In this document: in pieces, positions 20,433-26,009 of the stretch
How positions within the stretch are numbered: the stretch's first letter is position 1
Layout of the letters: each line of letters starts with the position of its first letter
The notes under the pieces: generated by a model
Databases searched by the model: none
What the model was told of the DNA's origin: nothing
Seen by the model: only the letters and a program-made list of their open reading frames with translations
Program-made: the position numbers and the translations under genes
Assembly (NCBI GenBank): GCA_022711655.1
Contig: JAKLEM010000009.1
Coordinates: 1-57,462, forward strand
Reading direction: 5' to 3'
DNA: 57,462 bases
Origin: Candidatus Auribacterota bacterium
GTDB taxonomy: Bacteria; Auribacterota; Ancaeobacteria; Ancaeobacterales; Ancaeobacteraceae

Positions 20433-20521
<89 letters not shown>

Positions 20522-20589: not shown

Positions 20590-20663
20590 ATTCGAACCCT
20601 CGAGGGAACGCGATTAGAATTAGAAGCCGCTTTGTAAACGGAGTCGTTCTGACGGCTTCGTTC
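20590..20663. repeat. 74-base dispersed repeat, copy 1 (T-arm derived)
   Basis: Begins ATTCGAACCCTCGAGGGA and ends GACGGCTTCGTTC. A second copy in the same orientation is at 23969-24041, with about ten differences and one length change. Read on the minus strand it contains a T-arm (GAGGG-TTCGAAT-CCCTC) and a weak anticodon-like hairpin, so it may come from a degenerate tRNA. Confidence 0.75.
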
Positions 20664-20690: not shown

Positions 20691-20719
20691 GATAGATTTC
20701 GCGGAGCGAAATCTTTATC
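20691..20719. repeat. intergenic hairpin, copy 1
   Basis: Arms GATAGATTTCGC and GCGAAATCTTTATC around GGA, with a two-base bulge. A related, longer hairpin is at 23858-23905. The remainder of the 284-base gap 20521-20804 is made of the tRNA-like repeats and the ribosome site of the next gene. Confidence 0.6.
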
Positions 20720-20804
20720 CCTCCCTCTCCGCCAGTTTTTTTTGAGCGAGCGGGCGGCATTGTGTAAAGCGAATCGTTGAGGCTGTGCTGAGGAGGAAAC
20801 AATT

Positions 20805-22417: not shown

Positions 22418-23365
22418 ATGATGAGACTTGTGTGTGCGTTGGTTGTGGTGTTGGCGGTTGCCCGTCCGTTGTGTGCGCAGGAGACGCCGCGGACGCTCCA
22501 GAAGATATCGGCACATGTGTATGCCTATGTCGGGGTCACGAACGCATCGCCCGGCGGGAATAGCTTCGGCGCGAACTGCGGCGTGATCGTCGGGGATGAC
22601 GCTGTCATGGTCGTCGATACCCTCGTCTCCGCGAAGGAGGCCGCCCGGCTGGACGCGGATATCAGGAAGGTGACCGATAAGCCGGTCAAGTATGTCGTGA
22701 ACACCCACTATCATCTTGACCATGCGTGGGGCAACTCGTATTTCGCCAACAAAGGGGCGGTGATCATCGCCCACGCCAACGCGCGGACCGCCGCGCCGCG
22801 GAGCGAATACGCGTTCGCGCATATCGCCGAGTTCGGCATGACGCAGGCGGACTTGGAAGGGACGGTTTTCACATTACCGCCGGTCACGTTCGATGACCGG
22901 CTGCGCGTTGATCTGGGCGGGGATGTCGCGGTAGAGCTCACGAACCCGGGCCCGTCCCATACGGACGGGAGCATCACCGTCTTTGTCCCCGGTGACAAGG
23001 TCCTGTTTGCCGGGGATATCCTTTTTACGAGATATCATCCGAACGTGGTGGAAGGAGACATCCCGCATTGGATCGCGGTCCTTGCGGAGTTGGAAAAGAC
23101 GCCGGCCACGATCATCGTCCCCGGGCATGGTCCGCTATCGACCGTTGCCGACATCAGGGATATGGAGACATACCTGAAGGAGTTCGATGCGCGGGCGCAA
23201 GAGCTGTGCCGGGATAAGAAGCAGGAAGACGCGCCGGCCATCGCGCGAACGATCATGTCACGGCTCCCGGATCAGGGCCGGACAGAGCTGCCCTATATGG
23301 TAGAGTCGAACCTGCGCCGGCGGTATCTTCCGCCCGCGGAACCTGTCTCCGGCGGGAAGAAATAA
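22418..23365 (+). CDS. exported MBL-fold metallohydrolase
   Basis: A 315-residue zinc hydrolase with a signal peptide (residues 1-20, cleavage after LCA). The zinc motif THYHLDHAWGN (96-106) gives the HxHxDH set, and later GPSHTDGS and VPGHGPLS supply further zinc-binding His residues. This layout matches periplasmic MBL proteins near the B3 beta-lactamase and quinoprotein-relay types. A beta-lactamase role is possible but not shown. AAAGGA precedes the ATG. Confidence 0.85.
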   Translation: MMRLVCALVVVLAVARPLCAQETPRTLQKISAHVYAYVGVTNASPGGNSFGANCGVIVGDDAVMVVDTLVSAKEAARLDADIRKVTDKPVKYVVNTHYHLDHAWGNSYFANKGAVIIAHANARTAAPRSEYAFAHIAEFGMTQADLEGTVFTLPPVTFDDRLRVDLGGDVAVELTNPGPSHTDGSITVFVPGDKVLFAGDILFTRYHPNVVEGDIPHWIAVLAELEKTPATIIVPGHGPLSTVADIRDMETYLKEFDARAQELCRDKKQEDAPAIARTIMSRLPDQGRTELPYMVESNLRRRYLPPAEPVSGGKK

Positions 23366-23428
23366 GCGCCGATCCGCCGAACGGTGTGACAGTGCCTTCG
23401 TAACCCTTCAGTCAGGGGTGGCTGGCAG

Positions 23429-23840
23429 GAAATGTCCCCGTCAGCATCGCGGGATGTGCCCCGGTAAGTGTCATGTCTGCGACGTAGCTTTGTATTTGCT
23501 GGGGCTATTTTGCCCCAGCTTCGAGGCGCGAGGAGTGACGCGTACCCACAGCGGTACGCGAACGACGAGCAACGAAGAAGATGGGGTGAAAGAGCCCCAG
23601 CCCTACGGGAAGGCCCATCTATAGCCAGCTTCTGCGTCACTCCTCCTCGGCGTGCCACAGAGGGCACGCTGTCGTCATCGTTCCTTGAATCTGGCACATA
23701 TCTGGGCCTTCAAATGCAAAGCTACGTCGCAGACATGACACTGGGCACATCCCGCTCAGCGCCACCCCTCGCTCGTCCCTCGCTTTTGCTCGGGACCCCG
23801 TGCCCGCTCGCATTGGCAATGTGCTGACAGGGACATTTCC
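23429..23840. mobile_element. MITE-like palindromic element
   Basis: Long inverted ends: GGAAATGTCCC(C)GTCAGC at 23429 pairs with its complement ending at 23840. 23449-23498 pairs with 23711-23755 almost perfectly apart from a five-base insertion (core GTGTCATGTCTGCGACGTAG). Inside are a small hairpin (CTGGGGC/GCCCCAG, 23498-23518) and further partly inverted segments around GAGGAGTGACGC. It encodes no transposase, so if it is mobile it would be non-autonomous. Confidence 0.6.
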
Positions 23841-23857
23841 CACCCGCGCAGGGTCTC

Positions 23858-23905
23858 AGGGGAGGGATATAGATCTCGCGGTGCGAGATCTATATCCCTC
23901 CCTGA
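23858..23905. repeat. long near-perfect hairpin, copy 2
   Basis: Arms AGGGATATAGATCTCGC and GCGAGATCTATATCCCT around GGT, extended outward with small mismatches (TCAGGGG / CCCTGA). About 22 paired bases. Related to the hairpin at 20691-20719. Confidence 0.75.
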
Positions 23906-23968: not shown

Positions 23969-24041
23969 ATTCGAACCCTCGAGGGAGCGCGATGAGAATG
24001 GAAACCGCTTTGCAGACGGAGTCGTCCTGACGGCTTCGTTC
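23969..24041. repeat. 73-base dispersed repeat, copy 2
   Basis: Same orientation as copy 1 at 20590-20663. The anticodon-like loop reads CTGCAAA on the minus strand, but the stem is imperfect and no acceptor arm is seen. Confidence 0.75.
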
Positions 24042-24344: not shown

Positions 24345-26009
24345 GTGTTTTCGCCGAAACTGGTGACGTGCCTTAAGGATTACTCGAAGGAGAAGTTCGT
24401 TAAAGATTGTATCGCGGGATTCATTGTCGGGGTGGTCGCGATCCCACTGGCTATCGCATTTGCGATTGCATCAGGAGTTTCCCCTGACAAAGGCCTTTTT
24501 ACGGCGATCATCGCCGGTCTCCTTATATCCGTGCTTGGCGGGAGCCGGGTGCAGGTCGGCGGGCCGACAGGCGCTTTCGTGGTCATTGTCTATGGGGTGG
24601 TGCAGAAACACGGGGTCGACGGGCTAATTATCGCCACATTGATGGCAGGCATCCTCCTGGTGGTCATGGGGGCCGCTAAGCTCGGCACCGCTATCAAGTT
24701 CATTCCGCACTCGGTGATCGTCGGGTTCACCAGCGGGATCGCGGTGATCATCTTTTCATCCCAGGTGAAGGATTTTCTGGGTTTGAGTATCGACAAGGTG
24801 CCTGCGGAGTTCGTGGGGAAATGGCACGTTTTCTTTCAGCATCTCGGCACGGTTAATTATGCCGCATTGATCCTGGGCCTTGTCACAGTCTGTATTATTG
24901 CCATGACCCCCAGGTTCTCAAAGCGTGTGCCGGGCGCTCTTGTTGCCCTTGTTTCCGTCACAGCGCTTGCGGCATTCTTTCATCTGCCTGTCGAGACGAT
25001 CGGCAGCCGTTTTGGGGCATTGCCTCACGGCCTGCCTGTGCCGCATTTCCCTGTGTTAAGTTTTTCAAGGATACGGGAACTCTTTCAGCCTGCTGTGACG
25101 ATCGCGCTCTTAGGCGCCATTGAGTCGCTGCTGTCCGCCGTTGTCGCGGACGGCATGATCGGCGCCCGGCATCGTCCCAATACCGAGCTTATCGGTCAGG
25201 GGATAGCGAATATCGGCTCGGCGCTTTTTGGCGGCATGCCCGCAACGGGGGCCATCGCCAGGACTGTCACCAATATCAAGAATGGGGGCAGAACGCCTAT
25301 CGCCGGCATCGTTCATGCGGTCACGGTCCTCCTTATCATGCTCTTTTTCGGGGCCTGGATCAAATTCGTGCCTTTGGCCTGTCTGGCGGGCATCCTGGTC
25401 GTGGTTGCATACTATATGAGCGAATGGCGGTCTTTCCGGGAGCTGCTCAAGGGGTCTTCCGGCGGAAAGATCGTCCTGGTCATGACGTTCCTTCTGACGG
25501 TTTTTGTCGACCTGAACGTCGCGATCGAGGTCGGAGTTATTCTTGCGACCTTTATCTTTATGAAACGTATGTCCGATGTGACAGAAGTCAAGGTTTTTGC
25601 CAGAGAATACGCAGAAGACGAGAAAATGGAGAAAGGGGAAGATCGCCCGTTAGCGGCATTTGCGCTCCCCCCTAGGGTCGAGGTGTACGAAGTCAACGGC
25701 CCCCTGTTTTTCGGGGCCGCCAACAGTTTTGATGAGGCTGAGCGGCAGGCGCATGAGAAGCCAAAAGTGCGGATCCTGCGGTTCCAGGATGTGCCCTTGA
25801 TCGACTCGACTGGCATGCACGCGCTCAAAAGTTTTTATACGAAGAACAAGCGCGAGGGCATTCACCTTGTCATGACCGGCCTGCATGTCCAGCCGCTCAA
25901 CGAAATGGTCAAATCGAAACTATACGAACTGGTCGGCGAGGAGAATGTCTTCGGCAGCATGAAAGAGTCGATCGCCCGGGCGGAAACATTATTGAAAGAA
26001 ATGAAATGA
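24345..26009 (+). CDS. SulP family anion transporter with STAS domain
   Basis: A 554-residue SLC26/SulP transporter. About 14 membrane segments in the first 410 residues carry the N-terminal signature AGFIVGVVAIPLAIAFAIASGV, followed by GGSRVQVGGPTGAF. A cytoplasmic STAS domain (about 440-554) contains PLIDSTGMHALKSF around residue 486. Members move sulfate, bicarbonate or other anions, often with H+ or Na+. The GTG start has AGGAG at 24331. It is the first gene of an operon encoding a proton-pumping-type complex, so bicarbonate or another anion coupled to that complex is plausible; the substrate is not decided by sequence. Confidence 0.9.
   Translation: MFSPKLVTCLKDYSKEKFVKDCIAGFIVGVVAIPLAIAFAIASGVSPDKGLFTAIIAGLLISVLGGSRVQVGGPTGAFVVIVYGVVQKHGVDGLIIATLMAGILLVVMGAAKLGTAIKFIPHSVIVGFTSGIAVIIFSSQVKDFLGLSIDKVPAEFVGKWHVFFQHLGTVNYAALILGLVTVCIIAMTPRFSKRVPGALVALVSVTALAAFFHLPVETIGSRFGALPHGLPVPHFPVLSFSRIRELFQPAVTIALLGAIESLLSAVVADGMIGARHRPNTELIGQGIANIGSALFGGMPATGAIARTVTNIKNGGRTPIAGIVHAVTVLLIMLFFGAWIKFVPLACLAGILVVVAYYMSEWRSFRELLKGSSGGKIVLVMTFLLTVFVDLNVAIEVGVILATFIFMKRMSDVTEVKVFAREYAEDEKMEKGEDRPLAAFALPPRVEVYEVNGPLFFGAANSFDEAERQAHEKPKVRILRFQDVPLIDSTGMHALKSFYTKNKREGIHLVMTGLHVQPLNEMVKSKLYELVGEENVFGSMKESIARAETLLKEMK

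Follow-up and report, generated by a model that had tools for sequence, protein, structure and literature searches.

The element at 23418-23850 of the window, by which we mean the whole analysed stretch of 57,462 nucleotides from a Candidatus Auribacterota bacterium, is a copy of a dispersed repeat, here called family A, which is apparently an undescribed repeat family in several little-known bacterial phyla. On balance, family A is probably a non-autonomous dispersed repeat of mobile origin in which the folded shape of one strand is maintained. Covarying stems together with wobbles confined to one strand suggest selection for the folded form of the strand GAGCGGGCAYGG...GGGACGAGCGAG, and the maintained feature appears to be the fold of one strand, either as RNA or as single-stranded DNA.

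The interrupted copy in the window

On the plus strand, a 315-aa frame ends at 23365 and a 554-aa frame begins at 24345; the element is housed in the 980 nt that separate them. The inverted-repeat search in the window gave outer arms at 23421-23446/23822-23847 (26 nt, 85% complementary), next arms at 23449-23461/23743-23755 (13 nt, 100%), and inner arms at 23467-23584/23625-23742 (118 nt, 71%, with the outermost ~26 nt perfect). Folded as single-stranded DNA, the region 23400-23870 reached -142.2 kcal/mol compared with -83.2 kcal/mol (sd 4.5) in shuffled sequences (z -13.0; 0/100 as good). The inverted repeats at 23400-23880 are genuine, lie well above chance, and make up two nested elements. 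The first-pass annotation had described a single MITE-like element of 412 nt with long inverted ends at 23429-23840; the inverted ends were borne out, with coordinates right within about 10 nt, while the single element turned out to be a repeat of ~150 nt interrupted by an element of 276 nt. In copies of the same genome on contigs C13 (query 25-65 followed by 345-436) and C27 (35-65 followed by 345-435), both ~150 nt long, the left end directly abuts the right end, indicating that the 276 nt at 23467-23742 are an insertion in the window copy.

The whole family A copy (433 nt with the insert) was placed at 23418-23850 on the minus strand from the arms and the model match, which was partial (23727-23834, 46.5 bits). 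The closing stem P1 pairs 23421-23446 with 23822-23847, the stem P2 pairs 23449-23460 with 23744-23755, and the hairpin P3 covers 23761-23817, with a lower stem (23761-23768/23810-23817) containing three consecutive mismatches. By core comparison, the conserved core of P3 consists of a 5' half (CTCGCTCGTCCC, 23768-23779, plus strand) and a 3' half (GGGACCCCGTGCCCGCTC, 23792-23809, plus strand). The model pairing of P3 halts after one pair in the window copy. P3 is partly decayed here, and with its decayed stem and its insert, the window copy is probably inactive.

The nested 276-nt inverted-repeat element (family B, 23467-23742), delimited from its inverted repeats and fold, lies in the P2 loop, with six loop bases (23461-23466) left on one side and one (23743) on the other. 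It has perfect 26-nt terminal arms (23467-23492/23717-23742) and two inner hairpin domains, and folds alone at about -161 kcal/mol. Once the insert is removed, the minus strand of the window copy reaches -100.8 kcal/mol and retains P1 and P2, and the insertion of family B into the P2 loop would have left both stem halves intact. No second full copy of family B was found in the own genome by sequence search; its middle resembles repeats in G001 (6 matches), which is the only other genome of the window's taxonomic family compared. These G001 repeats (L031, L033-L037), which are related to the insert, measure ~200-300 nt and comprise two hairpin domains closed by long arms that differ from copy to copy. 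Another family A copy of the own genome (L008, C11:26328-26442) carries in its P2 loop a short remnant that resembles a family B end by eye, and given this remnant the P2 loop may be a preferred target of insertion.

The first-pass annotation had also reported no open frame for the element. Although mechanical ORFs of 68-134 aa run across the region, a gene at the element is unlikely, since the family is intergenic and structure-conserved.

Several features were observed in the neighbourhood. An inverted repeat with perfect 20-nt arms around a 3-nt loop (23860-23902) directly adjoins the element, and related letters are found at 20692-20726. Two 73-nt stretches (23969-24041 and 20590-20663) are 89% identical, the latter near a tRNA-Ser gene (20433-20520); both were judged by eye to resemble the 3' portion of a tRNA, and no tRNA was called there. 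A tRNA-derived origin of the repeat at 23969-24041 was dropped, as Rfam and ARAGORN called only the tRNA-Ser at 20433; a search of the window with Rfam 15 at gathering score gave only a tRNA. An HDV-like ribozyme, suggested by a likeness in a few letters, was likewise dropped, as Rfam gave it no support.

Copies, distribution and covariation of family A

A search of the own genome (56 contigs with 1,624,547 bases in total, at 74.8% completeness) with the window query showed many matches to its right part (350-448), and the family model showed 25 further full-length family A matches above 129 bits in addition to the interrupted copy in the window. The repeat that was annotated from one locus is not a single copy: family A is dispersed and intergenic, with units of ~150 nt, and its copies are single and scattered. 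Because the structure is symmetric, model R1 also gave weaker matches on the reverse strand of strong copies, and these were excluded from the copy count; with model R2, no reverse-strand matches of that kind were found. The own alignment comprised 21 of the 25 copies, with L006, L008, L025, and L099 omitted as damaged or found later; the mean identity of the 21 copies was 83%, and own copies were at most ~93% alike.

Outside the own genome, an exact core pattern was found at 40 loci among 84,980 named species genomes, all titled Omnitrophota, Patescibacteria, or just 'bacterium', the Patescibacteria loci bearing Portnoy-, Uhr-, Magasanik-, Wolfe-, Jorgensen-, and other Parcubacteria-type names. 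All 40 loci share the layout by eye. In the 30 named genomes, 1 to 20 matches were found in each; since these genomes were chosen by the pattern, 30/30 are positive by construction. The second model, derived from 86 external copies and applied under stricter filters with matches taken at E up to 1e-5, matched 8/44 genomes of the window's phylum and 1/101 other sampled bacterial or archaeal genomes. The only copy outside the phylum among those 101 is L290 (G145:C72:13370-13542). The core pattern had 0 matches in viral contigs, and a distant blastn search of a plasmid collection gave no match. Rfam 15, run on 10 loci at a permissive E up to 5, returned only tRNAs and sub-threshold matches, none of them over the element, and searches of the open-licence PMC literature turned up no account of a repeat of this kind for Omnitrophota, Patescibacteria, or Parcubacteria.

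The shared shape is a three-way junction of P1 (26 pairs), P2 (12 pairs), and P3. The P2 loop is a conserved heptaloop of type CCRGCGW, and P3 consists of a variable lower stem, an asymmetric internal loop, and a tip, with the core CTCGCTCGTCCC - tip - GGGACNCCRTGCCCGCTC. In the 21 own copies, 28/50 pairs were changed on both sides (115 cells), and the covariation was 0.325 compared with 0.119 in shuffled alignments (0/500) and at most 0.084 for slid structures. Both-side changes were observed at 20/26 P1 pairs in the own genome, and the P1 ends are not a conserved sequence. In the 86 external copies, 50/50 pairs showed both-side changes (1616 cells) with a covariation of 0.767 compared with 0.180, in an alignment that was fitted to the model and hence leans towards the structure. 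The ends vary between copies while the centre stays conserved, and the letters of the P2 heptaloop and of the P3 internal loop and core are kept while the stems change by matched substitutions.

Variants of the shape were also observed in the own genome. L103 and L106 (C4:15950 and C34:23742) form a sub-family with the same P1 junction letters, a different and longer P3, and another core, and L104 (C37:2121-2211) consists of P1 and P2 only, as a near-perfect hairpin that has lost P3.

One-strand mismatches, gene context, and inversion

Read on the plus strand of the core, the stem mismatches comprised 135 A.C and 24 G.T (46:4 in own and 89:20 in external copies), in a count whose script scored G.T and A.C alike and skipped stems with less than 75% Watson-Crick pairs. 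Eleven of the 101 parsed entries, in which the stem was not reliably found, were dropped from this count, namely the window copy (L001) and L006, L008, L040, L055, L057, L062, L073, L139, L141, and L253. By genome, 20/29 lean to A.C, 3 lean to G.T, and the other 6 are ties (p 0.0005 by sign test). Within the alignment of own copies, A.C mismatches arose by G>A in 12 columns and by T>C in 6, and G.T mismatches by C>T in 3 and by A>G in 0, while unpaired columns showed no bias (G>A 15 cells, C>T 16 cells). The A.C mismatches of the plus strand are G.U or G.T wobbles when read on the opposite strand, an asymmetry that fits RNA and single-stranded DNA alike. When folded as RNA, the wobble-tolerant minus strand was more stable, with a lower MFE, in 5/5 copies, and from this G.U-type tolerance the minus strand of 23418-23850 is presumed to be the functional strand.

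A mechanism consistent with a mobile origin can be proposed. The folded single strand, either single-stranded DNA from replication or transfer or a transcript, would show its conserved unpaired letters to a trans-acting enzyme or binding protein supplied by the host or by another element, and only copies that still fold would be copied on, which would explain why compensatory changes preserve the stems. P1, the long closing stem, would additionally permit flipping in place. Upkeep of each copy by compensation suits a function in the cell and one at the level of the element equally well.

The gene context bears on this cellular alternative. By mechanical frames, own copies lie 8 ++, 5 --, 5 divergent, 3 convergent, and 3 undetermined relative to genes, and external copies 10 ++, 10 --, 4 divergent, 9 convergent, and 5 undetermined; the orientation of family A relative to genes is random. 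No promoter, T-run, or direct repeat was conserved in the 60-nt flanks. As for replication-strand bias, the GC skew of short flanks gave none for the own 25 copies (p 0.41), and for 76 external copies a mean of +0.04 (p 0.0005), where copies within a genome are not independent.

At orthologous sites within one genus of the own phylum, the element was inverted between conserved flanks in 3/4 pairs (L108/L270, L277/L279, and L278/L282), alone or together with a neighbouring repeat, and was in the same orientation in both members of the fourth (L110/L114). In G010, of a related genus, the first gene pair is present without the element, with 89 nt between the flank matches. Inversion between the P1 arms is the simplest cause of the flipped sites; separate insertions in opposite orientation are possible, and misassembly is unlikely because the arms are far shorter than usual reads. 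A third repeat of ~110 nt often adjoins family A in one genus (L108 1660-1800; matches to query 972-1079), and the two together form a composite that recurs, and is inverted, as a single unit.

A dispersed RNA with a host function, whose minus-strand transcript would have a cellular role such as binding a protein or stabilising or processing mRNA, in the manner reported for ERIC and NEMIS transcripts, is a conceivable but rather doubtful explanation. The covariation and wobble pattern is what a structured RNA would give, as is the lower MFE of the minus strand in all five folded copies. The lack of a preferred orientation to genes, the flips at orthologous sites, and the absence of a conserved promoter or T-run in the 60-nt flanks argue against it, as do the very uneven copy number, the patchy distribution, and the absence of an Rfam family.

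Movement, candidate enzymes, and known repeats

Direct traces of movement were found in the related family f4 (G004 and G011), whose copies are 95-97% alike over ~193 nt between unrelated flanks (L285/L292, 97.4% over 193 nt). In f4 the structure lies within units of ~191 nt with conserved outer inverted ends, (R)TAAYAGTTTAGC, and 9-bp direct repeats were observed at L285 (8/9), L286 (8/9), L292 (9/9), and L302 (9/9), that is, at 4/6 copies with both ends located, compared with at most 6/9 in 30 cross-copy controls. The exceptions are L113 (5/9) and L107 (2/9, with a displaced direct repeat of 10-11 nt), and three further copies have no recognisable end. The outer inverted ends together with the 9-bp target duplications indicate that the f4 unit has moved; another element may have carried the structure along as a passenger. 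The same test in the own genome gave target duplications at 0/21 copies, and in external copies 6/46 compared with 11.7% of controls, no excess over chance. With no such excess elsewhere and a top identity of ~93% among own copies, f4 is the only family in which recent movement is shown.

Candidate enzymes were searched for in the own and in other copy-bearing genomes. Y1_Tnp, DDE_Tnp_1, and RVT_1 were all absent from the 74.8% complete assembly of the own genome. DDE_Tnp_1 genes were present in G004 and G011 and absent from G000, G003, and G026, all three of which carry copies, and the exact f4 end pattern was found around no transposase gene at 13 examined loci of G004 and G011. RVT_1 was present in 1/8 element-bearing genomes of the own phylum (G004). 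A Y1_Tnp gene was present in 18/30 named genomes; of the 33 Y1 matches, 30 were examined, and at gathering-like scores (E <0.2) 0/30 loci had a copy less than ~1.5 kb away, the best match being 14 bits (E 0.27, L156). An all-against-all blastp comparison of stop-to-stop frames, a weak test, gave no recognisable transposase-like cluster among recurrent neighbour proteins, the clusters being mostly antisense or repeat-derived frames. A release-factor-like cluster was dropped, as its adjacency to copies was not consistent.

On these data, an ordinary terminal-inverted-repeat MITE, in which a DDE transposase reads double-stranded inverted ends and the internal fold is incidental, is unlikely for family A and disfavoured for the window copy. 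The ends and duplications of f4 and the DDE_Tnp_1 genes in G004 and G011 are what it would predict. The first-pass annotation had read the inverted ends as those of a MITE-like element; in the own genome the outer stem covaries rather than being conserved, and because its mismatches respect one strand only, a double-stranded end read by a transposase is disfavoured. The missing target duplications at own copies, the three copy-bearing genomes without DDE_Tnp_1, and the absence of the exact f4 ends around transposase genes at the 13 examined loci also speak against it. Those features that would be decisive for a MITE are found only in f4 and are missing from the window's own family. A transposase with matching ends was located neither in the own genome nor at the 13 loci mentioned above. 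What stands of the proposed non-autonomous transposable element is a multi-copy (25 others), intergenic, and non-coding repeat with target duplications in f4, whose size of ~150 nt, or 433 nt with the insert, and lack of a transposase gene agree with a MITE (<~500 bp). The annotation's alternative of a structured repeat fits better than a MITE.

Movement by a RAYT (Y1 HUH) transposase, as for REP sequences and REPINs, is highly improbable: the like life style (short, dispersed, intergenic, hairpin-forming, with compensatory changes) and the Y1_Tnp genes of 18 named genomes are set against the lack of Y1_Tnp in the own genome, the lack of copies at all 30 examined Y1 loci, and conserved letters that lie in the loops and core of family A and at the ends of REPINs. 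The least probable explanation, that template-switch correction at replication keeps the palindrome arms alike without selection, finds support in the many transversion pairs (such as GC>TA and GC>CG) among the 115 double changes, one-sided transversions being few, as expected if one arm is copied to the other. However, neither a ratio of 135 A.C to 24 G.T tied to the core orientation nor loop and core letters conserved across phyla would result from a symmetric DNA process. Such correction may act in addition.

For family A as a repeat of mobile origin, a more specific version is a tentative one: a mobile repeat shared across the window's phylum, Omnitrophota, and Patescibacteria, copied as one folded strand (single-stranded DNA or RNA), recognised through its loop letters and not its end sequences by an enzyme other than a Y1 transposase or a reverse transcriptase, with the closing stem as a device for in-place inversion. 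A folded DNA strand with strand specificity, variable stems, and conserved unpaired features is found in the attC sites of integrons. Family A would be like attC in its strand-specific fold; no cassette arrays were seen for family A, and its conserved letters are presumably unlike the attC end boxes.

Among described repeats, REPINs are nearest in kind to family A, both being miniature, intergenic, dispersed, and hairpin-forming as far as REP sequences and REPINs are characterised in PMC3116915. According to that account, REPINs have highly conserved ends, a variable spacer, and adjacent RAYT genes, show compensatory changes on both sides of the hairpin, and have been proposed to pass through a single-stranded intermediate. 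In family A, by contrast, the outer stem varies and the loops and core are conserved. ERIC, Correia/NEMIS, and other bacterial MITEs, as outlined in PMC2229807 and PMC10969869, are like family A in being 100-200 nt long, intergenic, and non-coding, with a stable stem-loop, and f4 shares inverted ends and target duplications with repeats of the ERIC/NEMIS type. Most bacterial repeats treated in PMC2229807 fold as one long stem-loop through end pairing, whereas family A forms a three-way junction, with two conserved-loop hairpins and strand-specific wobble, in several phyla. CIR of Caulobacter and Brucella, as presented there, also has two hairpin arms and a conserved motif exposed in a loop, but its arms are joined by a linker and it lacks the long covarying closing stem of family A (PMC2229807). 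In-place flipping by recombination between terminal inverted repeats is described for IS elements of Wolbachia in PMC3004938, whereas the unit flipped in family A is a non-coding block of 140-550 nt. Family A is probably a structured miniature mobile repeat of the REPIN/ERIC-like kind, and the term 'MITE-like' was partly right.

If this reading is right, family A would be a large, strongly covarying structural family, absent from Rfam, in phyla known almost solely from metagenomes, and a clean case for the spread of short repeats in which a single strand, not duplex ends, is recognised. Gene exchange between Omnitrophota and Patescibacteria was inferred earlier from genes, as reported in PMC12455944, and the presence of family A in both phyla would be a marker of DNA exchange between them.
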